Assembly (NCBI GenBank): GCA_023091665.1
Contig: JALJCQ010000031.1
Span: forward strand, 310,001 to 374,000
From: Pythium myriotylum
Taxonomy: Eukaryota > Oomycota > Peronosporomycetes > Pythiales > Pythiaceae
DNA: 64,000 nt
Direction: 5' to 3'
The position numbers were made by a program, and so were the translations under genes. This document shows, piece after piece, positions 5,061 through 33,098 of the stretch (its first letter is position 1; each line of letters opens with the position of its first letter). The notes under the pieces are model-generated. The model saw only the letters and a program-made list of their open reading frames with translations, made no database searches and was not told the DNA's origin.

Positions 5061-5910
5061 GGTGAAGGTGAAGTCTATTGAGCGCAATAAATGTACCCTA
5101 ATAGCTGGGGCTCTGATGCATACTCCTGTGCTTACCGTGGGTCAACTTGGCTGACAAGCCAGGGGTGTAAGTCGGAGGGCGCGAGCCGTGGCAGATCTGC
5201 GTGGCAGGTCATGCCAGTGGGATGATGGGCGCGGCTTGTGTGGCCGGAGTCCATCGCGTGTTGTGCCAGGGTGGCCGCGAGCGAGTTGTGGGCGCGTACT
5301 TGGTGTTGCCAGTGACGTACGCCGACGACATCGGTGAGGTTCCTGGCTCTGTGGTAGAGTCGCAGGAGTTTGTCGTTCTTGGGAGGTCTATAATCTCGCA
5401 GTTGACGAAGGATGGGCTCACAGTTGCCGATCACAGTTAAGCCGAACCAGCCATTAGCCTTTGCAGCTTGAAGGCCATCAATGAGGCCTTGATACTCAGC
5501 CTGGGTGGTAGTAGTCGAGGGGTCGACGATCCAGGCGGCGGAGCTCCAGAAAACAGTCGGGCTGGGACCCGCAGATGCTGTTGTGACGAGGAGGGCGCCA
5601 GCTCCACCAGGGCCGGGGTTGCCTCTCGTCCTTCCTGCGAAGAAGAGCACATTAGCTGGCTCAACGAGTGTTGTGAGTGGTTCGGTCAGTTCCTCGGTTG
5701 AATCGAGGAGATTCTTGAATCTATCAATGAGACTTTTTGCGAAGTCTGGCGTGTTATGTGCGCGATCCAGCCGATAGCGGAGCGTGTCAAGCACTCGCTG
5801 ACAACAAGTCGTGTGCATAGCCGCAGCCTGTCGATGTGACCAGGCCCGCGACTCATCGGCCATACTGTTTCTCCATCCGTTGATCACTACGAGTGTCTCC
5901 AGCACAAGTT
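5061..5910 (-). mobile_element. 5'-truncated non-LTR retrotransposon, 850 bp
   Basis: Minus-strand insertion flanked by near-identical 15-bp repeats at 5046-5060 and 5911-5925 (AAGGGAAAGCA then T or C then GCT, one mismatch), read as the target-site duplication. Its 3' end, at the left, reads on the minus strand as an AGCTATTAGGGTAC block, then GCTCAATAGACTTCACC and a repeated CTTCACC tail. The 5' end is cut inside the segment just before the RNase H domain, close to where the element at 35523-38456 is also truncated. Confidence 0.88.
5132..5905 (-). pseudogene. RNase H fragment in truncated retrotransposon, catalytically dead
   Basis: The 257-codon frame begins at a GTG inside the truncated element. 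It retains the TRGNPGPGGAG core and QAEYQG, but the first catalytic Asp is Ala (FFAGR), the GDS Asp is Asn (GNC) and the last Asp is lost (SLAAT). The frame is uninterrupted although the active site is gone. It shares the Asp-to-Ala change at FFAG with the copy at 1417-2184, while the copy at 37609-38382 keeps all four acids. Confidence 0.82.
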
Positions 5911-20816: not shown

Positions 20817-21254
20817 TAGCAGACAGTAGACTGTGCTCAGATCGTAGAGTGGTCACAACAGTCAACACAAAGAAGGGGCGAAGCCAGGGCTGCATTTGCT
20901 TGAGGCACAACTACTTAGCACTACGCTGGATAGTTCAGTGCATTGGCGGAGGGACTTCTATTGGAATCAGTCATACACGCAACTTCCTTTTGCTCGCAGT
21001 CTGAGAACGAATAGAAAGATCAACCATGCCCAGCTCAAAGCGTCAACGAACCCTCCCCCCCCCCCACCACCGCCACCATCCAGCGCCGACATTCCCAGAC
21101 CCTCACTACACAACTTACCCTCTCGGTCGCACAGCAAGCCTCGACCATGAAGATCACACACATCTTCGCCCTCGCTACCGCCACGATCCTAGGAAGCTCC
21201 ATCGCCAACGTCGCCGCAGAGCCCAAGCAACTCTTCCACGTCACGGCACCCAAG

Positions 21255-21269
21255 GCTTCCTTCGACGCC
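21255..21269 (+). repeat. Target-site duplication, left copy
   Basis: GCTTCCTTCGACGCC, identical to 31164-31178. The second copy is fused to the element's A-rich tail and continues the carboxypeptidase frame. Confidence 0.97.
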
Positions 21270-21402
21270 TAGTTCCGAATTTGCCGGGGAGAGCGCAAGC
21301 GACCCTTCGGCTCAAGACCAAGTTCTCGAGCACAAGCTTCACGGAACGAGCTGCATCAAGTGTTCGAAAGGTCGTGGGAGGAGACGATAACTTGGAGTTT
21401 GT

Positions 21403-24400
21403 ATGAGCAGCGGCAAGAAACCGCCGCCCGAGGGCGTCGGACCGCCGCCCAGCATGCGCACGCCAAAGTCGAGGCCGACTGAAGGAGGAGAAAGAGCGGA
21501 CGTCGGCAAGCGAGCGCCAAAGAAGCAACCCCAGGCAAACCCGCCCGTGGGCTCTGCGGTGCCCACAACTCGGAAGGCATGGACAGGAGCGGAGGCATCG
21601 AGGGCACTCTTCGCCAAGACTGAACAAGTGAAAGCAATGCGACCGGTATATCCTGACGAAGTCGAATATGCGGAAGCCTATGAGAGGTGCCGTAAGAAGT
21701 ATAACGTTTTTCCCCCGGGACGACAGCGTGCGCAAACCGCAGAAGAATTTCATGACGATTTCCTGTGGAGAACCGGAGCAATCCACTTGGATGCGCTCCC
21801 AGGGCATTTCAAGCAAACGAAGACATTGAAACAACGTGTGAGGGCTTTAGCACACATGCGCAGCCGTGCGTACTCCGTATTGTACTTGCCTCCGCCGCCA
21901 GGTTTCAAATTGCGTCAACATGGTGCCAGATTCCAACTCAATGTCACCTTGCTGGGAATGAATGAAAATGGAGAGGTCACCGATCCAGTTGCGCTTGAAT
22001 TGTTGGCACATGTCAACAGCATCCACATCACGCCCACCTCGATCGAATTCTGGTTTGTTCGACCAGAAGACTCGGCGAAATTTGCGGGCAGGACTCTTCG
22101 TTTACCGGGAGGAACCGTCACCCTCCTCGCAACCGAATCCTTCACGACAGAGGATCCAGACCACGGATTCGACGACGTTGCCATGCACTTGCTTTACGAG
22201 ATCAAATTGATAGGGGGAAGTCGACTTGATCCAGAAGACATCCTCGCGATCAGTGAACATATCTGTGGGGGAATGGAAATCGTGGAACTAGACGTGGGCA
22301 GCTGCGCTACATCCTCGGAGTTAGCAGTCTTGCAAGAAACTTGCTGGACCATCACCCTTTCGACGATGAACGGACCCCCGGGCCTAGTCAATGTGAGGGA
22401 ACTTGCTGTGAAACTGGGAGATCGTGATCTGCTGTTTGGGGTGCACCAGCCAAGGCTGGCCAAATTTCCTCCGTGTCCAGTTTGTCTTCACGACTGGCAT
22501 ACAAGGCAGAAATGCCCACATAAGGAGGCCACTCCAGAGGCAGCCAGCAGACGAGAGCAACTTCGAGCACCGCGTCGACTGCTCATAGAGGTCCCCGAGC
22601 CGACTAAGTTCCCGCGGCCTCCAAAACCAGCGACACCAGCGATATACGCCGAGCAGCTGGACCGAGAATACATCCTCCTAGAACCGGAAGCGGCGAGAGC
22701 ACAAGCATCAGTGGCCAAGCTCGCGGAAGAAGCCACTGCAGCATTGCTGGAAGCCACTCGTGCACAAGCGAAGTTGGAAGCCACAGAGCGGGAGGCGCGA
22801 GAGGCGGCTGTAGCACGAGAGGTAGCAGCACAAGCTTGCAGCGGAAAGACGTCACCAACCAACCAACAAGCGGTTAGCGCCAAGGCAGAGATGAAGACAC
22901 CTGACCAGAAAGATAAGGAGGAGCTGCTCAGCAAGATCAAGACACCGGAGGCGAAGGCAACGAAGACCAAGACCAAGATCAAAGCCAGTCCAACAGCAAA
23001 ATTGCAGTCGGCCGAAGAGAGGGTAACTACTCCGAAGACGATCGCAGCGAAGGCGCTACCAGTAGCTAAGCTTACCCATGGCGGCGAAGCGGCAAAAGCG
23101 GCGACCAAGAAGCATGTAACCGTGGAGACAAGTGGAAGGGCACCAGCAAAGCAGCAGACGAGAAACACGGACAAGAAGGTCACTGAGGGCAACGATAAGC
23201 CACCAGAAGGCGCGGAGCACGACCGAACGAATCCGACTGTCAAGGAAGGCCGGGCAGAGGCACCAGGCTTGCCAGCAGGTGATGTACAGGCCGCAGGCGA
23301 TCGTCCGAGTGGGTCGCCATTTGATCCGATCCCTCCGAGCCACCCCAAACGACTTGCGAAAGTCAAAGCGAAGAAAGATACGACCCGCGCGAGAATCAAG
23401 GCCGCGAAAACTATGGCAATGGCGAGAGTCGCGGCAAAGCAGTTTACCGCAGGTATCAAGAAAGGAAAGGCGCAGAGAGACAATGGAAGAGAGGCGCAAG
23501 TCCTAGACGTCATCATGGACACGGACGAGGCGGCCGACGCAGCTGACGACGACTGCCAAGTCGACAAAGTTCGAACCCATCCACTTGGGACAAGTACAGT
23601 TGATCAGCCTAATACTACCCCGGTGGGAGAAAAGAGAGGAAGGGTAGATACAGTTGACGATCCGTCTGCAATCCGACTCACCGAGAAACCTCCGACCCGG
23701 CAAGCTCGAGCCAACACGGCCCAGGCATCAGTACATGCGCCGACAGCGGTATCTCTGCAACGAACAAAACAGCGAGCCGCGAAGCAAAAGAAGGGAGCGG
23801 AGACCAGACAGCGGCAACTCTCAGTCGCTCGGTTCCTCCAACCACAAGGCGCGCCGGCAGACGAAGGGATGGAGGTAGACGACGAAGAAAATCCGGAGGA
23901 GAACCTGGCAACGACGAAGCGAGACCTCACAGAGGAAGAGTGGAGAACTCTCAGCTTCGATGGCATCAAACAGCGACTCGGTCTACGGGAGATTACCACG
24001 CCAGCGGATGGTCACTGTCTTTACTCAGCGATCCATGCAGCGAAAGCACCCAGCTGCCCCGACGAGCTGATCAGGACCAAGACGGTAGTCAAGGAGATCC
24101 GGTGGTGGCGTCGAGAACTAGCTGCCAGACTCGGCAACAGATTCGAGGGCTTGATTCAAAATGGATCTGTCAACCTCCGCGATGCGAGCATGACCTTCCT
24201 GGGGAAGGCAGAGACCGACGAGACCACGATGCCACTGCTTTTGGCCCACTTCGAGGAGGAAGCCGCGATCTCTTGCGATCATCCGGTAGGAAGGAAATAT
24301 TGGGGAACAAGCTATCACATTGTCGCACTCGTGGATTGGGACAAAGAGCCGGTATATGTGTTTAGTGTGCTTGGAGCGGCGACCAGCGACCGTGAGTGGG

Positions 24401-25392
24401 AGGCAGTTGTGCAGCGGTACTACCTGAACGAGGACACGGGAGCAGTCTGCGTTGAAACACTATCGATTGCCGAAACGGTTGCTCAATTGCATGTCTACGC
24501 GGCGAAGAAAGTGTTGCCTCTGATTCTGGTGCTTCATCATCGCAGTGATCAAGAGGGGCTTAATACTTCACACTTTCAAACACTCCGAGTTCCAGAACAA
24601 CACTACATGAACTGGTCTGGATCCAGGCAAAGATCTAAAGCCATGGCAAAACGACTCGAGGAGGCACTGCGGCTAATCAGAGATGGGACCCTGAACCCGG
24701 TAGCAGGACACCAGCTAATGCCATCGCCTTGCCCAGACAAGCCGAAAACGAGCTCTGAGTTCGAACCTAGCATCCCGTTATCGGCAGTGCCTTCAACGGA
24801 GCCGGCTAAGATCAACTCGAAAGCTCCCGCCGGCCCCAGGACCATTGACCTGGTCTCTCCGGAAAGCCGCAGCGAAGAAAGAGCACCGACAGTCCAAGGT
24901 GGAGAGAAACAAGAAGCAGGCTTCGGACCTCCAACCCCGGCAGTCGGAATGGCTGTCAGCTTGGCGTTAGAAACTTCGCCCTCCACAGTGTTCAACTCGG
25001 CGCTCTCACAGTTGAATGCATTACCCAGCACTGGCTTGTCAGCAACTCCTCTTGATGCTGACCAACTCGGGCTGCTCATGGAACGGCTCCAAACTTCGGA
25101 AACGGTAGAGCCGGATGAACAGATCTCGCGTTTGCTTATGCAAGCTAATGCCGCCAACCGCCTGGCCTTTGCCAACTGGAAACGCGGTCAGCAAGGCCCG
25201 ACTCGCGAACTGTACAAGGACCTCGACTCACTAGATGAAGCGATAAGGGTTTATAAGACGGATGGGTTGAGGCTCGCACAGGTGGTTCGGGCTCTCCCAT
25301 ATCCCCAAGTATATCTAGCCATCCAAGCCGATACGAAGGTCATTCGATTGGGAAGGGCTTTCGCGCGAATCGGGATGGTCCAAAATGCTTAG
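21403..25392 (+). CDS. Retrotransposon ORF1: CCHC zinc knuckle and OTU-like protease
   Basis: 1329 residues from an ATG 133 bp inside the element. The N-terminal 350 residues are a globular region of unknown fold. A perfect retroviral-type zinc knuckle follows, C358-x2-C361-x4-H366-x4-C371, expected to bind the element RNA. Residues about 420-830 are Ala/Lys/Glu-rich with coiled-coil-like stretches and basic nuclear-localisation-like runs. Residues about 855-1065 resemble an OTU cysteine protease: D869-G-H-C872 with LYSAI, a YWGTSYHIVALV strand pair, and a late His in TSHFQTL (H1057). OTU enzymes cleave ubiquitin linkages. Activity here is inferred. The remaining 260 residues are low complexity, then helical. 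The stop overlaps the next ORF's start. Confidence 0.88.
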   Translation: MSSGKKPPPEGVGPPPSMRTPKSRPTEGGERADVGKRAPKKQPQANPPVGSAVPTTRKAWTGAEASRALFAKTEQVKAMRPVYPDEVEYAEAYERCRKKYNVFPPGRQRAQTAEEFHDDFLWRTGAIHLDALPGHFKQTKTLKQRVRALAHMRSRAYSVLYLPPPPGFKLRQHGARFQLNVTLLGMNENGEVTDPVALELLAHVNSIHITPTSIEFWFVRPEDSAKFAGRTLRLPGGTVTLLATESFTTEDPDHGFDDVAMHLLYEIKLIGGSRLDPEDILAISEHICGGMEIVELDVGSCATSSELAVLQETCWTITLSTMNGPPGLVNVRELAVKLGDRDLLFGVHQPRLAKFPPCPVCLHDWHTRQKCPHKEATPEAASRREQLRAPRRLLIEVPEPTKFPRPPKPATPAIYAEQLDREYILLEPEAARAQASVAKLAEEATAALLEATRAQAKLEATEREAREAAVAREVAAQACSGKTSPTNQQAVSAKAEMKTPDQKDKEELLSKIKTPEAKATKTKTKIKASPTAKLQSAEERVTTPKTIAAKALPVAKLTHGGEAAKAATKKHVTVETSGRAPAKQQTRNTDKKVTEGNDKPPEGAEHDRTNPTVKEGRAEAPGLPAGDVQAAGDRPSGSPFDPIPPSHPKRLAKVKAKKDTTRARIKAAKTMAMARVAAKQFTAGIKKGKAQRDNGREAQVLDVIMDTDEAADAADDDCQVDKVRTHPLGTSTVDQPNTTPVGEKRGRVDTVDDPSAIRLTEKPPTRQARANTAQASVHAPTAVSLQRTKQRAAKQKKGAETRQRQLSVARFLQPQGAPADEGMEVDDEENPEENLATTKRDLTEEEWRTLSFDGIKQRLGLREITTPADGHCLYSAIHAAKAPSCPDELIRTKTVVKEIRWWRRELAARLGNRFEGLIQNGSVNLRDASMTFLGKAETDETTMPLLLAHFEEEAAISCDHPVGRKYWGTSYHIVALVDWDKEPVYVFSVLGAATSDREWEAVVQRYYLNEDTGAVCVETLSIAETVAQLHVYAAKKVLPLILVLHHRSDQEGLNTSHFQTLRVPEQHYMNWSGSRQRSKAMAKRLEEALRLIRDGTLNPVAGHQLMPSPCPDKPKTSSEFEPSIPLSAVPSTEPAKINSKAPAGPRTIDLVSPESRSEERAPTVQGGEKQEAGFGPPTPAVGMAVSLALETSPSTVFNSALSQLNALPSTGLSATPLDADQLGLLMERLQTSETVEPDEQISRLLMQANAANRLAFANWKRGQQGPTRELYKDLDSLDEAIRVYKTDGLRLAQVVRALPYPQVYLAIQADTKVIRLGRAFARIGMVQNA

Positions 25393-25897
25393 TCGCCTGG
25401 CGACAGACGCACGGCTCTCAGCAGATGCCACAGTGTTCTGTACAGAGTGGGCGGTAGCCATTGACGCAGCGCCAGAGATACAGGCTACGAAGCTAGCTCA
25501 ACAGGAGGATCGGTGGTCAAGACTGAAACATCTTCTTCCAAGAAACGGCCCGAGGCTACCGCTTGACCCGGCCTACATGGGGCGGTTCGTAGCCGCCGAT
25601 GACTGGCACCGTCTCCTCGCCTTTGCTGTACTATTGCCGGAGCACCTGGGCAAGCAGTTCCGGTCAGCGTCAGTTCCAGTGTTGTGTGATGCTCTGAGCA
25701 TGTGGCTGCTCAACCAAGCAAGTCTCGACTACACGGCCGCAGCAGCGACCATGCTGAGACATCGTGAATGGGCAGTCATGGAGGCTCTCCTTTTGGGTTC
25801 CGACGGTGCGGATGAGGACCCTGCTGCTACGCAGCCTGTCGGTGCGGCGGTCAAGCCTCCTCAGGGAGACCAGGCCGGTGCACCAGACCGGAGCTAA
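25385..25897 (+). CDS. Retrotransposon middle ORF, unknown function
   Basis: 170 residues starting at an ATG eight bases before the end of the ORF1 stop (AATGCTTAG), in the next frame, so translation by reinitiation or frameshifting from ORF1 is plausible. The protein is mainly helical-looking and Trp/Leu-rich (WAVAIDAAPEIQATK, WHRLLAFAVLLPEHLG, MLRHREWAVMEALLLG). No family was recognised. Its 3' end overlaps ORF2, which is in the third frame. It might alternatively be the N-terminal part of ORF2 brought in by a second shift. Confidence 0.65.
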   Translation: MLSRLATDARLSADATVFCTEWAVAIDAAPEIQATKLAQQEDRWSRLKHLLPRNGPRLPLDPAYMGRFVAADDWHRLLAFAVLLPEHLGKQFRSASVPVLCDALSMWLLNQASLDYTAAAATMLRHREWAVMEALLLGSDGADEDPAATQPVGAAVKPPQGDQAGAPDRS

Positions 25898-28800
25898 GGG
25901 CATCCGCCGGGTGCCAGGCCCGACAGGACTCACTGCATCTGTTCGGGCCAAGGCCGCATGTAGGTCGCGCAACTACTATGCGGCCCTCGCAGAGAATTCC
26001 TGGCTCGATGACGATGACTCCGGGTACGAAGATGTCGGCACGAGATCGGAAAGTCAGCAGCGCAACCACAACACATCAACGTCCAAACAACCACGTCCCC
26101 CCTTGCGGAACATCGGCGGACTGATACTACATACCCAGAATGTTAATGGACTTGGAACAGGGGCCGCAGCAAGGGAATGGCTGGACGCCACTAGAGCGAG
26201 AGAGGACGGAAAATGCCCGGATGTGGTTTTTTGGCAAGACCACCGGACAAGTGAACAATCGGCGGAGCAACTAGCGGGAGACTACAAACGAGGGTGGGGG
26301 TTTCGGGATCTTCCAGACGCCCCCGCAAAGATGTTTTGGAAGACGTCGGGTGATAAAGCTGGCGGTGTAGCCATCCTGATACCTCCCGACTCGGCGGTTA
26401 AGGGAGCTCGTCCGCTATGGGAACCAGAGTGGAGCGGGGATCTGATCGCGGTTGAAGGGACATTTGCAAACGCGCCGATCACATTGGTGAACATTTACGG
26501 ACCCAGGAAAAAGGCGACAAGAGAACGTTTCGTCCGCAAGCTGCGCATGACGGGACGTCCACAGGGTCTAATTGTGCTCGGGGGTGACTTCAACTGTGTT
26601 TTAGACCCGGATCTGGATCGCAGTCGGCTCAACAGAGAATCTGATGGGTCGGTGGAACTCCAGGCTCTATTAGCAGAGTGGCAGCTGTTAGACACGCTCA
26701 CATCAGCTCAACTCGAAGCAACCTCGCCGAATCGACGACACGACTTCCAGGCGCGGCATCATACATTTCGATACTCGCACTCAGGAGTCCTCGAGTCAAG
26801 TCGTCTTGACCGAATCTATATTAGTACCACGGCTATCCGGCGTGTAGCGTCCATCGAAACTCGTCCTCCACCCTGCTCTAGTGATCATGACGAAGTCAGA
26901 ATGATTCTTCTTTCTTCGTCCGCACCAACTCGACCATCTAGACGAGGACGAAGACGAAGACCACGGGGAGTTCGGTATCCACTGCCATCAGGCTGTGGGA
27001 GTATCGCAAGGGACGTGACTATCCATGCCTTGGGTGAGTTGAGCACACAAGTGCAAGGCGCAGCGGCCGCGGCGACAGCGGCACTGTGGGACCCTCTAAA
27101 ACTGCGAATCAAAACGAGCATTTTGCAGGGCATAGCGGCCCATCGGAAAAAGCTCCGCCGTGCATACAAACGCCGCGTAAGGCGCACCCGAGCCGCCCTA
27201 CGCCAAGCACAAGAGACCGCGGCTAATATCGCCCAGCCCATCGAGCCCACCATCGAAGGCATCACCACAGCGTTCGAAAGCCTCACGATAGATCCCCTGG
27301 CACGCGCGCGGCGCCTTCGCTCAGAAGTCATTCGTGATGCCCAGTCACGGTCGCAACGACGTGTCCAGCGAACCTTCGCAAAATACATCGGCTCCTCGGC
27401 AGACGTAATCCGCAACTTCTTCAAGAGAGTCAGGGTAAAACCCGCCTGCGTCTCCCTAGAGGAATTGCCGCGATCCAACAATCGTGACTCTGCGGCCGAT
27501 GTCGCAGCCGCCGCGTGGAAGACAATCACCCAACGTGGACCCCTCTCAGAGAAAGCTCAAGACCTTTTCTTCGGGGACTTGTCGCCGCCAAGGGCAACAG
27601 CAGATGGCAGTCATTGGTCGGAGGCCTTCACGGAGGAGGAGGTGATGACCGCCCTGCTGGCATGCCCCAGAGGTAAAGCAGCAGGACCAGATGGCCTCCC
27701 AAATGATTGGTACCGAGACAACGCAACCCACATCGTCCCGATTCTCACCCTTATGTTCAATAACTGGTTCGACCAAGCGATCTTCCCGCCAAGCTTTCGG
27801 CAAGCGTCGATTGTATGTGTACCCAAGAACACCGCACCACGCACGGGACTGGACTTCCGCCCTATCGCGCTGTTAAACACGGACTACAAGATCTTTACAC
27901 GGCTTCTGCTTAATAGAATTTCTACCCAAGTCCCCAAGCTGGTTGCTCCCACCCAATTTGGGTTCGTGGATGGAAGGCAGGTCCACGATGCGATAGACGT
28001 ATGGACGGCTTTGCGCTCACTGGCTCGAGTTGGCCAAGTGGACTCGTCGGCGCTTGCGGTGCTGCTAGACTTCGCCAAAGCCTACGATACTCTTGATCGA
28101 CGCTTTCTCATTCTCGCCCTCAGACGACTGGGGTTTCCAACGAAGGTCATCACCGCAGTTGACCAGCTCCACATGGCAACAACAGCTACCTATCTCGCCG
28201 AAGACAGTGCCTCGGAAGACCAAGACATTCTCAACGGGATCCGGCAAGGATGTCCCCTCGCGCCTGTTCTTTTTATTCTGGCAGTCGACACGCTCTACGA
28301 GCTCCTCGCTCGTGAAAAAAGTATCCAAGGAATTCGTCTGCCGTCAGGGCAAACCGTCACGGCAGTAGGCTTCGCGGACGATACGACGGTGTATCTTCGT
28401 CACCACAAACACACACGGGCGCTCAAGGAGGCACTCGATAGGTTTGCGGCAGTCTCCGGACTCCACATCAATGTTAGCAAATGCATTGCAGCACCGCTAG
28501 GGCCGGAGGGATGGCCGACGGACGTGACAGACATCGGATTCCCAAGGATCAGGAAAGGAGAGGCAGCCAGGTTGCTGGGAGCTCAGCTCATGATATATCC
28601 AGCAGCGTCCAAGGTGTGGGAAATTGCGCTCCAGCAACTAAGAGCGAGGCACTTTGCCCAACTCAAGACCACCGATCTGCTCCAGCGAGTTCAGATTGCC
28701 CGAGCGATCATCGTCCCGAAGATCCTCTTCGTTGGCAGGCATGAATGGCCGACGGCGTCCCGGATAGCCCAGCTCCAGAAACTCGTACATCACTACGTCT

Positions 28801-31088
28801 GGCACGGTAGCTTCGTCGAAGTCATGACAGGACGCAAGGCATGGATGAGTCGCGCATCGGCAGCCCAACCCATGGCACGAGGAGGGCTGGCGGTACCCGA
28901 CCTCGCAGTGGAGTTCAAGAAGCTCAGCTTCACGACGTCGAAAAGGTGGGGACAGAGCACGGGCGACATTCGAACAGAAATAGGTCAGATTCTCCTTCAA
29001 GGGAACAGCAATTGGAGATGGGTTCCGAGGCCATCTCGGACACCACAGCCCCAGCCGCGACATGAATCCTCACTGGCAAAGACTGGCCTACGGCAGATCG
29101 ATGCCCTGGGCTCACAACCGCGCACAGAGGAAGAAACTGACGCCACGATCAGATTAATCCCGGCCTTGTGGAGCACAGCCTGTAACGTCCGGCGTTGGGA
29201 GGATGACTGGTACGTATGTGACTACTCCGAGCATCTGCTCGAACTTCGGCAGCTCCGCTCTCTCCAAGATGACACACACGGCCACGTCGATATTCACGCG
29301 TTGCTTGCAGCGAGAGTGGCTGATGACGAAATCCTTTTGCTCCAGGACGGAAGCTGCGCAACCTCGATAACCTTCAAGGCAGTCGCGAGAACACGGGACA
29401 CCATCGGGGACGCACTCGATATCAGGCCTGATAAGAACGGCACGATCTCTTTCCGCAGTAAAAGGTGCAATTTCCCGCTCTCCAGAGTGGAATCTGACCA
29501 GTTCCGGTTACTATGTGATGTCATCGTCGCCAACTATCCGGCTGTTCTCGGGCTGCATGATGACGACGACATGCTCCGAGTCGTTCCGGCAACAACAGAC
29601 GTTTGGCGCCTCCGAAGACGTGCCGGGCGCATTGACCTGCTATGGGAACCCTCACCAAACTCGCAGTTCACACTCGGGGAGGTCTCCTCCCCCAAGGATG
29701 CAGCCGCACTCATCAGGAAAACCATTGACTCACCTGGCGCGGTGGTGTTAAGCCACCCGTGGATAGGTATAGAGCGCATGATCTGGAGGAAACCGCTTGC
29801 CACCAGCCCAAGAGCGGCCCGTAAACTCCTGGAAAATCAGACGACAGCGCGTGCAGCTCAAGAAGCTCAGGCACGCGAGACACTCACGCAAAGCACAGAC
29901 CCGGTCATTCACGCAGCCCTGCAGAAGTTATCATGGAGGGAACTCGACAGAATCCCAGCCTCGTCCCATCAGCGTCTTCTCATGCGGAAGATAAAAGGGG
30001 GTAGAATCTCTGGGTGGGACAGATTGAATCAGCGCAGAGGATGCCCGCACCGTGGCGAAGGCGGAGCCGGCGGAACAATTGCACACATATTCTGGGCATG
30101 TCCGAACGCACAAGTGCTTTGGAACCAGCTCTTCAAGATATGGGATCTTGACGGCACGACCACCAAGGCAGTAGGAGACCTTCGTCAGTTCGTCTTCGGC
30201 CTCCAGCTGCACCATTTCCCAGCCCAGCTCTGGTACAGGGCAGCCTTGTCCCAGATATCCCCGGATGACGTCGACGCCATCACGCTGGTTCACGATACAG
30301 CAGCAGCGGCGTGGCAGCAGCATGTGCTCACCACTCTGGGGTGTATTTGGAGATGGCGACACAACATTGTGGACGAGGAAATCGCATGGTCCCCCGATCA
30401 AGCCGGAGTCTACCATCTAGCGGTATTGCGCGCCTCCCTGCGTGGCCTGTGCGACAGATTGCCACAGGTCCCGCGTGTTCGGGACCCCAGGTTCCATCTC
30501 ATTCAGGCACTTGGCAGACAAGGAATGGGTCCATCGTTGAGCCCAGTAGGCGGCCGACGACATGTTCTCTTCTTCGATGGTGGTTCTCGAGGGAATCCGG
30601 GACCAGGAGGGTCCGGCGCCGTTATCATCGCGGTTGACGAAGATGCCACGGCAGCGGAGATAGTGTGGAGTGCAAGCATGTCCTACGCGCGCCCCGACAT
30701 GACAAACAATCAAGCAGAATACCTCGGCCTACTTGCGGGTCTCCGAGCAGCAGCAACCAACCACTGGCAAGTGGAAGTTGTTGGGGACAGTGCACTGATC
30801 CTTAGCCAACTCCAACGTTACCGCCCACCACGGAACACAGCTCTTCGCAAACTTTACGCCCCGGCACGCCGGCTAGCAGATGCTCTCCGGATAACGGAGT
30901 GGCACCATCACCTGCGGGCATTCAACAAAATGGCCGACTCAGCAGCCAACGCAGCTATGGACTCCCACACCAGTGTGCAAGGCCCGCACACCCACCCCAG
31001 AAGCCACCACGGCAGGCTCGAAGCGTTCCTGGCCTCCGACTTCACCGAATGGCAAGCTCGCCACATACCCCGCCAACAGCTGCGGTAG
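25812..31088 (+). CDS. Retrotransposon ORF2: endonuclease, reverse transcriptase, RNase H
   Basis: 1758 residues from the first in-frame ATG (the frame is open to at least 25764). Domains in order: apurinic-type endonuclease (HTQNVNGL near 26130, GGDFNC near 26581, SRLDRIY near 26805, SSDHDE near 26878); reverse transcriptase (GKAAGPDGLPNDWY, FRPIALLNTDYKI, DFAKAYDT, GIRQGCPLAPVLF and the FADD catalytic box at 28371-28382); a zinc-finger tail near 30040 (RRGCPHR ... HIFWAC); and RNase H (FDGGSRGNPGPGG with Asp at 30576, QAEY, GDS and MAD), so all four catalytic acids are present. It should nick target DNA, prime reverse transcription and degrade the RNA template. One zinc-finger Cys is Arg (CPHR), unlike other copies here. 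Confidence 0.95.
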   Translation: MRTLLLRSLSVRRSSLLRETRPVHQTGAKGIRRVPGPTGLTASVRAKAACRSRNYYAALAENSWLDDDDSGYEDVGTRSESQQRNHNTSTSKQPRPPLRNIGGLILHTQNVNGLGTGAAAREWLDATRAREDGKCPDVVFWQDHRTSEQSAEQLAGDYKRGWGFRDLPDAPAKMFWKTSGDKAGGVAILIPPDSAVKGARPLWEPEWSGDLIAVEGTFANAPITLVNIYGPRKKATRERFVRKLRMTGRPQGLIVLGGDFNCVLDPDLDRSRLNRESDGSVELQALLAEWQLLDTLTSAQLEATSPNRRHDFQARHHTFRYSHSGVLESSRLDRIYISTTAIRRVASIETRPPPCSSDHDEVRMILLSSSAPTRPSRRGRRRRPRGVRYPLPSGCGSIARDVTIHALGELSTQVQGAAAAATAALWDPLKLRIKTSILQGIAAHRKKLRRAYKRRVRRTRAALRQAQETAANIAQPIEPTIEGITTAFESLTIDPLARARRLRSEVIRDAQSRSQRRVQRTFAKYIGSSADVIRNFFKRVRVKPACVSLEELPRSNNRDSAADVAAAAWKTITQRGPLSEKAQDLFFGDLSPPRATADGSHWSEAFTEEEVMTALLACPRGKAAGPDGLPNDWYRDNATHIVPILTLMFNNWFDQAIFPPSFRQASIVCVPKNTAPRTGLDFRPIALLNTDYKIFTRLLLNRISTQVPKLVAPTQFGFVDGRQVHDAIDVWTALRSLARVGQVDSSALAVLLDFAKAYDTLDRRFLILALRRLGFPTKVITAVDQLHMATTATYLAEDSASEDQDILNGIRQGCPLAPVLFILAVDTLYELLAREKSIQGIRLPSGQTVTAVGFADDTTVYLRHHKHTRALKEALDRFAAVSGLHINVSKCIAAPLGPEGWPTDVTDIGFPRIRKGEAARLLGAQLMIYPAASKVWEIALQQLRARHFAQLKTTDLLQRVQIARAIIVPKILFVGRHEWPTASRIAQLQKLVHHYVWHGSFVEVMTGRKAWMSRASAAQPMARGGLAVPDLAVEFKKLSFTTSKRWGQSTGDIRTEIGQILLQGNSNWRWVPRPSRTPQPQPRHESSLAKTGLRQIDALGSQPRTEEETDATIRLIPALWSTACNVRRWEDDWYVCDYSEHLLELRQLRSLQDDTHGHVDIHALLAARVADDEILLLQDGSCATSITFKAVARTRDTIGDALDIRPDKNGTISFRSKRCNFPLSRVESDQFRLLCDVIVANYPAVLGLHDDDDMLRVVPATTDVWRLRRRAGRIDLLWEPSPNSQFTLGEVSSPKDAAALIRKTIDSPGAVVLSHPWIGIERMIWRKPLATSPRAARKLLENQTTARAAQEAQARETLTQSTDPVIHAALQKLSWRELDRIPASSHQRLLMRKIKGGRISGWDRLNQRRGCPHRGEGGAGGTIAHIFWACPNAQVLWNQLFKIWDLDGTTTKAVGDLRQFVFGLQLHHFPAQLWYRAALSQISPDDVDAITLVHDTAAAAWQQHVLTTLGCIWRWRHNIVDEEIAWSPDQAGVYHLAVLRASLRGLCDRLPQVPRVRDPRFHLIQALGRQGMGPSLSPVGGRRHVLFFDGGSRGNPGPGGSGAVIIAVDEDATAAEIVWSASMSYARPDMTNNQAEYLGLLAGLRAAATNHWQVEVVGDSALILSQLQRYRPPRNTALRKLYAPARRLADALRITEWHHHLRAFNKMADSAANAAMDSHTSVQGPHTHPRSHHGRLEAFLASDFTEWQARHIPRQQLR

Positions 31089-31163
31089 AAAACAGGGTAG
31101 TACCACCCGGCTATAGGGTTCATTAAATTGCGATCCAATAGACCTCACCTTCAAAGTCAAAAA

Positions 31164-31178
31164 GCTTCCTTCGACGCC
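31164..31178 (+). repeat. Target-site duplication, right copy
   Basis: Exact match to 21255-21269, directly after the element's AAAGTCAAAAA tail. Confidence 0.97.
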
Positions 31179-33098
31179 ACCCTCGCCACCTTCAACGGAG
31201 AGCTCGATGTCTGGAGAGTGCAGCGAGCCGATGGAGACAAGGTCACGGCACAAATCTACGCCACCGAGGCTGACGTCGCAAGGTTCAAGGACATCTCGAG
31301 TTCTCGCGAAATGCTGCTCGCCAACCAAACCACGATCGTACGGGACCCCGTCAACACGGAAGAGATGCTCATCTCGCGTGCCGCCACCCGTGCGGCCTGC
31401 GCCACTTCCACACGTCGTCACCTGGAAGAACTCGCCACCACCGACAAGTACGTCAACAGTACGTTCTTCGACTGCTTCCATCAACCGTCCGAGGTGTTTG
31501 CGTTCTTCGACCAGCTCGCGGCCGAGAACCCCACCATCTTCTCCAAGATCGACAAGGTCACCACGACGTACGAAGGCCGCACCGTGCCTGGGTACAAGAT
31601 CTCAACGGGGACTGGTCGCAAGCCTTTGTACACGCAAGCGTTGATCCATGCTCGCGAATGGGTCGCGGGTAGTGCGACATTCTATATTATGGCGTCGTTC
31701 TTGGACGGTCTTCGCTCGAACGATCCAGCCATCACGTCGATCTTCAACGAGTACGAGTGGCACTTCGTGCCGATCCTCAACCTTGATGGATACCAGTACT
31801 CGTGGAATGCCAGCCCGACAAGCGCTCGTATGTGGCGCAAGAACCGCCGTCCTATCACCGGCACGACCTTTGGTGTCGACCTCAACCGAAACTACCCGCC
31901 AGCCGATTTCTGGGGCCGCAAAGCTGAGGGACCCACAGGAGAAACTTACCCAGGCGCGTCGGTTCTTAGCGAGCCTGAGACCTCAGGGTCATTCGACTAT
32001 GTCAAGGCTCTCCAGCCCTTCGGAGCGATCGACATGCACTCTGTTGCCGGTGGAATCTACCGTGCTTACGGCAACCAGCCTGATACTCCGCCGGCGCCGA
32101 TCGGACCAAAGCTCAAGGTGCTTGGTGATGCGATGGCCGCGGCTGCAGGTCGTGACTACGAGAGTGCTCTTAGCGGTGAACTGTACATTGCTTACGGCTG
32201 CTTCGACGACGCGGTTTTCCAGGTGCTCGGCAAGCCGACGTTCACAATCGAGATGGCCGGCACGGATTTTATCGAGGACGAGTCCACGATTCGTCCCACG
32301 GGTGAAAGCATGTACAGGGCTTTCATGACGTTTGCCCAAGGAATGCCAGCTTACTGGAGCGGTTTGCTCTAGCGCAAGTTCGGAAGGTTCGTCGAGGAAA
32401 TCACGTCGACCGCAGTTCAAACTGTTGGGATTTGTAATAGTTTAACTCAATAGGTTTCACTCCCATTCATTGGTGATGATTTATCATCGCTCGTCCACAA
32501 ATATATTGCATAACTATTGTGAAGGGGAAGTAGCTTGTTCAACACGAAGCATTTCCGTCCTTCATCGAGAAACGAGCGTGGGGCAAATGAGCAGTCCATT
32601 CACAGATTATGCCGGACTCGGAGAGTCGGAGCGAGAGGAATCTCCCGGTGAGTCGAGCGAAGGCTCGTAGAGGCCAGCCCAGGGATGTGGAGGGTGGGTT
32701 TTCAGCGAGCGCGACCGAGCCTGGAGGTGAAGCTGGCAGATGAGCGAGGAGCTTCGGCTCGTTGGATGTCGGCTCTGCTTGGCAAAACCGCGAATGAAGC
32801 TGCCCAACTTAACTACTCCTACGTGAGGGAAAACCTTATCCGGCTGGGAGCCGGCAGGATGAAAACCTCACACCTACGTCGAGATCTTGTCGGCGGCCAT
32901 GAATAGCCGCGTCGAGCAGTTATTCTTGGAGTTGGGGAGGAAGCAGCTGAGATGGTGCCGGCGGAGATCGTGTAGCCGTTGGCGGAGTCGTTTCTCTCAT
33001 AGCCCGGAAACCACCATTTCCGCGTTCGCTGCGCTTCCTCGGAAACCAACAAGTCGCAATCAGGCTGGTAGTATCTGTTCATATTGCATTCAAACACG

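Follow-up and report, generated by a model that had tools for sequence, protein, structure and literature searches.

A divergent OTU-like domain, a predicted cysteine peptidase, in ORF1 of a LINE retrotransposon of Pythium myriotylum

Introduction

Mobile elements of several kinds encode proteases that deconjugate ubiquitin or SUMO, and to our knowledge no explanation for this has been given. Here we describe a predicted protease of this general type, an OTU-like domain, in open reading frame 1 (ORF1) of a long interspersed nuclear element (LINE) of the oomycete Pythium myriotylum. The LINE lies in a stretch of 64,000 nucleotides (assembly GCA_023091665.1, contig JALJCQ010000031.1, positions 310,001 to 374,000 of the forward strand), referred to below as the window, and coordinates are those of the window unless a locus is named. 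An earlier note on this DNA had proposed such a domain and regarded the ORF1 as unusual.

Several described systems are close to this one. Helentrons encode an OTU-like cysteine protease as an additional ORF, for which a role in transposition was argued from its conservation (PMC4067079). The P. myriotylum domain is likewise OTU-like and borne by a mobile element, and a Helitron helicase with an adjoining related ORF is also found in this genome; however, Helentrons and Helitrons are rolling-circle DNA transposons, whereas here the domain is part of a retrotransposon ORF1. Ginger1 DNA transposons have C-terminal OTU or Ulp1 domains (PMC2836005). There, too, an OTU domain has been added onto a mobile-element protein, but that protein is an integrase-like transposase. 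Nematode NeSL and Utopia LINEs have an N-terminal Ulp1-like protease (PMC4640811). These elements are similar to the present one in being LINEs with a deconjugating-type cysteine protease, but theirs is Ulp1-like, their endonuclease is restriction-like, and they encode one protein. Kojima and Fujiwara, in 2005, reportedly described Dualen/RandI as a LINE with a cysteine protease in addition to its APE endonuclease and RNase H. Dualen is a possible precedent. It differs from the present element in that it encodes two endonucleases (PMC4640811).

Cellular and viral OTU peptidases (PF02338) have Cys, WG, and His boxes in the same order as the ORF1 domain, and the Cys and His are kept in both. The ORF1 domain differs from them in that it scores below the Pfam cut-off, has long insertions between the boxes, has no conserved Asp/Asn two residues after the His (His+2), and is embedded in a LINE ORF1. 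An Asp or Asn at His+2 is common in OTUs, though not universal. Some OTU-like enzymes use a reduced Cys–His dyad, and the OTU-like protease of tymoviruses performs both polyprotein processing and deubiquitination (PMC10318531). In the literature searched, which did not include subscription papers or Repbase records, we did not meet an OTU domain in ORF1 of a LINE with endonuclease (EN), reverse transcriptase (RT), and RNase H. Since Helentrons and Ginger1 already provide examples of OTU domains in mobile elements, what is unusual here is the place of the domain, in a LINE ORF1.

Results

ORF1 of the window LINE (21403–25392, + strand, as are all the coding features of the element below) encodes 1329 amino acids. 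The OTU-like domain occupies residues 867–1062 (24001–24588) and is recognized by a sub-threshold Pfam match, by a profile search of the PDB, and by hhalign. A (D/N)GxC box typical of OTUs is present as DGHC (residues 869–872, 24007–24018), containing the predicted nucleophile, Cys872. The WGG-type box with its hydrophobic strand is represented by YWG (residues 966–968, 24298–24306), which aligns with the WGG of cellular OTUs, and a His followed by an aromatic residue, H1057–F1058, is found near the domain end in the HFQ box (residues 1057–1059, 24571–24579), with His1057 as the predicted catalytic His. The earlier note had assigned an OTU-like cysteine protease domain to 23938–24601, which are ORF1 codons 846–1067, and the DGHC, YWG, and HFQ motifs that it named were located in ORF1 in OTU order. 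The CCHC knuckle that it reported in the same protein is also present (residues 358–371, 22474–22515, CX2CX4HX4C, CPVCLHDWHTRQKC), and its spacing is identical in the OTU-bearing frames of seven other loci (L012, L014, L019, L021, L029, L030, and L032). ORF1 looks modular, with an N-terminal part containing the CCHC knuckle, a linker, the OTU-like domain, a second linker, and a C-terminal part; this C-terminal part was not detected in family 3.

The 58.7 Mb genome was searched with residues 846–1066, which gave 49 rows corresponding to 46 loci, with three rows being extra fragments of L016 and L017. All 46 loci were aligned, and the Cys and His were counted locus by locus. The Cys is kept in 45/45 loci that have the box (43 in the alignment and two in a neighbouring frame; L018 does not have that stretch), and the His in 42 of the 43 readable loci (39 within the alignment, one more, L045, when its sequence was read further, and L016 and L032 in another frame). 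The His is replaced by Gln in L043, which has an open frame, while L027, L031, and L052 are unreadable at this position. The residue after the His is Phe in 25 and Tyr in 15 of 40 aligned rows. The conservation of Cys872 and His1057, on which the earlier note had made its proposal depend, therefore holds within this genome. Because many rows are near copies of each other, the loci cannot be counted as independent cases; what is independent is the agreement in Cys and His among three LINE families and a group of Helitron-associated loci. The other two LINE families and the Helitron group are only 21–30% identical to the window domain.

For profile comparisons, 26 of the 46 loci, including the window, were selected as open, complete, and free of near-duplicates, with L043 excluded (alignment A1). 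Across these 26 rows, G870, C872, W967, E982, P983, P1039, H1057, and R1062 are invariant. The Trp of the WG box is lost beyond A1 in L033 and is a stop in L051. The median dN/dS (ratio of nonsynonymous to synonymous substitution rates, NG86 method) is 0.092 for family 2 (7/21 pairs usable), 0.159 for family 3 (36/66), and 0.175 for the Helitron group (10/21).

In Pfam, OTU (PF02338) was the sole family at E ≤ 1 for a 261-residue piece of ORF1 (E = 0.0029), and for the whole ORF1, OTU was found at E = 0.15 with 13 bits. When ten representatives were rescanned, four matched OTU at E ≤ 10 (L013, L019, L020, and L029); the match of L029, of family 3, covers the middle of the model, near the WG box. 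The A1 profile gave 18 matches up to E = 10 among PDB sequences, with the best at E = 0.016, and 17 of these are OTU entries. Four carry the name OTU or ubiquitin thioesterase, another is Lpg2248, and the twelve entries labelled viral polymerase or replicase are taken here to be viral OTU domains; the remaining match is a non-OTU amidase. Lpg2248 is LotA, which carries two OTU domains, and 3PHU is described as a viral OTU in the same source (PMC10318531).

The A1 profile was also compared with an alignment of cellular OTUs, in which an OTU of this genome is joined by six database relatives; two of these relatives are fragments that lack the Cys box. In hhalign, the match spans the Cys and WG boxes with E = 2.8e-5, a probability of 74%, and a score of 43.7. 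With a trimmed core, the score was 35.0. Shuffling the OTU columns 60 times gave no score above 22.3. In 200 shuffles of the A1 columns, the maximum was 29.9, and 0/200 reached 35.0; the reversed alignments scored 14.9 and 11.7. A forced global profile alignment placed H1057 on the His of HYDSL in the cellular OTU. Another alignment, A3, of the window domain with six database OTU relatives, was discarded because the boxes were out of register.

Searches with single sequences and with A1 were also made in larger collections. A phmmer search of the PDB with the whole ORF1 gave nothing at E ≤ 1. In a large protein set, neither ORF1 region 836–1090 (3235 candidates) nor the A1 profile (7997 candidates scored) found any homologue at E ≤ 0.001, and a cellular OTU of the genome found 6 in the same set. 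The single one of these matches that bears a species name is from Globisporangium ultimum, an oomycete. In viral_contigs, there was no relative of the window protein used as a single query.

How widely is the domain associated with LINEs in this genome? Four genome searches gave 64 merged OTU-like places, and in 40 of them a related RT lies 0.3–8 kb downstream on the same strand. The pairing took 84 of 122 RT rows; 34 rows at 29–30% identity and 4 short rows were excluded, and the 4 short rows have no OTU place within 8 kb upstream. Among RT places of at least 46% identity, an OTU lies upstream in 39/70 (30/46 of the long ones), and none was detected upstream of the other 31. At 34–39% identity, the OTU is upstream in 2/9 and was not detected upstream of 7. 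The three LINE families are separate in a tree of 18 RT rows from this genome. The OTU-like domain of a sister LINE, L059, has the GxC, a W-C-G box, and HF all present, and the nearby RT is 36% identical to that of the window.

Seven of the 46 loci (L028, L034, L037–L040, and L048) form a group, the Helitron group, that has no RT downstream. L028, the member of this group that was examined at length, has a 449-residue OTU-like frame (L028:5395-6741, − strand), related to the LINE OTU domain and closest to family 3, upstream of a Helitron helicase frame (L028:2-4459, − strand) with matches to Helitron_like_N (PF14214, E = 2.8e-58) and PIF1 helicase (PF05970, E = 1.1e-69). In a tree of 28 OTU rows without an outside root, five Helitron-group rows join family 3 and the sister LINE, and this cluster is split from families 1 and 2 with support of 100/99. 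Family 3 scores higher in hhalign against the Helitron group (203.6) than against family 1 (110.0) or family 2 (102.4). Acquisition of the family 3 OTU from Helitrons is one candidate reading, on a tree that has no outside root and whose single sister-LINE row is very long-branched. If it were rooted at the sister LINE, the tree would nest the Helitron group among the LINE OTUs and so point, though only suggestively, to capture by Helitrons.

Two further groups of sequences were seen in these searches. One is a further group of LINE-like RTs at 34 places, more distant from the window RT (29–30% identity) and with mostly 1385–1388-residue open frames, which looks recently amplified in this genome. 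Two host OTU matches, L057 and L058, share an EGNCLYHxVWQ box and resemble each other more than the OTU gene in L054; the L058 match is interrupted by an internal stop.

The LINE itself extends from 21270 to 31163 (+ strand, 9894 bp), ending with AAAAA at its 3′ end. Similarity to the near-identical copies L010, L011, L012, and L022 in this genome begins at window positions 21269–21271, and the element is flanked by an exact 15-bp target-site duplication at 21255–21269 and 31164–31178. We conclude that it is full length because the copies start at the same place and because of the exact flanking repeats. ORF2 (25764–31088, listed from a GTG) contains an endonuclease domain (26133–26888, PF03372, E = 7.7e-14), a reverse transcriptase (27849–28487, PF00078, E = 1.6e-29), and an RNase H-like domain (30573–30956, PF13456, E = 4.1e-16). 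Two ORFs, EN–RT–RNase H in ORF2, a CCHC knuckle in ORF1, and the target duplication place the element among LINEs with an APE-type endonuclease, RT, and RNase H, an I-group-like architecture.

ORF1 of the window copy, 21403–25392, is shortened in comparison with the 1501-codon open frame of L012. A one-base length change relative to three near-identical copies is located near the end of ORF1, 3′ of the OTU part. The ORF2 frame overlaps the 3′ end of the longer L012 ORF1 in a different frame (L012 about 5335–5471, + strand; window about 25758–25894). The open frame of ORF2 has no ATG at its start, and frameshifting or reinitiation are candidate routes for its translation start.

The insertion site is in the signal/propeptide portion of an M14 zinc carboxypeptidase gene. 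The LINE splits this gene, with the start and a signal-like sequence at 21147–21269 and the frame continuing from 31164. The 3′ piece spans 31164–32372, of which 31164–32369 matches PF00246 with E = 1.8e-46. Given this position and the exact 15-bp duplication, the allele has probably been disrupted by a fairly recent insertion. The GC content of the window is 57%.

Discussion

What is the function of an OTU-like domain in a LINE ORF1? The sequence, position, conservation, and profile relationship of the domain are observed; its fold, catalysis, substrate, and benefit, like RNA binding by the CCHC part, are inferred. Because the active-site residues are kept in several long-separated element families, the domain is probably of real use to the element. 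We suggest, with the balance of our confidence about even, that the divergent OTU-like domain in ORF1 of the window LINE and of the two related LINE families is a cysteine peptidase of the papain type, with a predicted Cys872–His1057 dyad, and no third residue assigned to it, that removes ubiquitin or a ubiquitin-like tag, and that the benefit is local, at the particle. The domain would follow the N-terminal CCHC part and, in two families, precede a further C-terminal part, with the remainder of ORF1 holding the predicted enzyme on the ORF1–RNA particle. There, the putative Cys–His pair may strip ubiquitin or ubiquitin-like tags from ORF1, ORF2, or host factors, and the particle would thereby be spared from turnover, which we think the most likely benefit.

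A number of observations weigh against this assignment. Although OTU was the only Pfam family for the 261-residue piece, its score of 18.6 bits is below the cut-off of 23.3, and no scanned LINE or Helitron-group sequence reaches that cut-off. Scanned as whole ORF1 frames, L012, L014, and L019 give no OTU match, and only 10/26 sequences in A1 have one at E ≤ 1. A competing model, Anticodon_3, matches 4/26 at E ≤ 1, and the best E values of the two models are about equal (0.0029 for OTU, 0.0026 for Anticodon_3). Most of the PDB matches of A1 cover only 15–60 residues around the Cys box, and they are not independent, since the twelve viral entries are interrelated. Separate profiles of families 2, 3, and 1 and of the Helitron group gave 1, 0, 1, and 4 PDB matches, and the one OTU among these six is OTUD3, the top match of the Helitron group, at E = 0.23. 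A single-sequence structure model of the domain, made without an alignment, has a mean pLDDT (predicted local distance difference test) of 39, too low to inform on the fold. The sub-threshold Pfam score, the weak single-family profiles, and the lack of a confident model speak for a chance resemblance, the region being some other conserved LINE ORF1 domain. However, the joint profile, the shuffle controls, and the presence of three boxes in OTU order argue against chance, which we consider very improbable. The proposal of an OTU-like cysteine protease domain in the LINE ORF1 is thus backed by both the profile and the conservation evidence.

The active site also departs from that of typical OTUs. 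The Cys, WG, and His boxes bear out the catalytic-core order proposed in the earlier note, but His+2 in the window is Gln instead of the usual Asp/Asn, and this position varies among 40 aligned rows (Q10, T8, E8, D7, K7). The position of D869 is Asp in just 17 of 43 aligned rows (D17, N17, T8, E1). As to selection, dS is large or saturated for many pairs, and in family 1 a ratio could be had only among near-copies, where it runs from 0.3 to 2.0 with very few changes. It might be supposed that the OTU fold is catalytically weak or dead and is retained for binding ubiquitin or another protein, as the variable His+2 and a Cys-box Asp that is not conserved between families would allow. This seems unlikely to us, since the Cys and His are among the few residues kept in all groups, and they would not be needed for binding alone. 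A different role for an active enzyme would be self-processing, in which the ORF1 of about 1500 residues is cut into a nucleic-acid-binding part and others, like viral polyproteins. The domain lies inside a very long ORF1 with less conserved linkers on either side in families 1 and 2, and tymovirus OTU-like enzymes perform both jobs (PMC10318531). In family 3, however, the frame of L029 stops shortly after the OTU domain, and none of L029–L032 has a match to ORF1 beyond residue 1090, so that only the N-terminal side could be cleaved off there; we would give self-processing a low probability. It is also rather improbable, in our view, that an active OTU-like enzyme has host chromatin or silencing factors, such as ubiquitinated histones, as its main target, opening target sites instead of acting on its own particle. 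In favour of this reading, signalling for chromatin change has been proposed for Helentron OTU proteases (PMC4067079), and a related domain adjoins a Helitron helicase here, in an element with a life cycle unlike that of a LINE.

Returning to a local deconjugase at the particle, a broader and more doubtful suggestion can be made, namely that LINEs and Helitrons may have exchanged an OTU-like deconjugase module, which both would retain as a functioning countermeasure to ubiquitin-based control by the host. In LINEs, it would have been built into ORF1, giving a retrotransposon with its own deubiquitinase. A LINE group with a deeply conserved OTU-like domain, beside a related Helitron one, is a system for asking whether ubiquitin limits retrotransposition and whether mobile elements fight back against that control.

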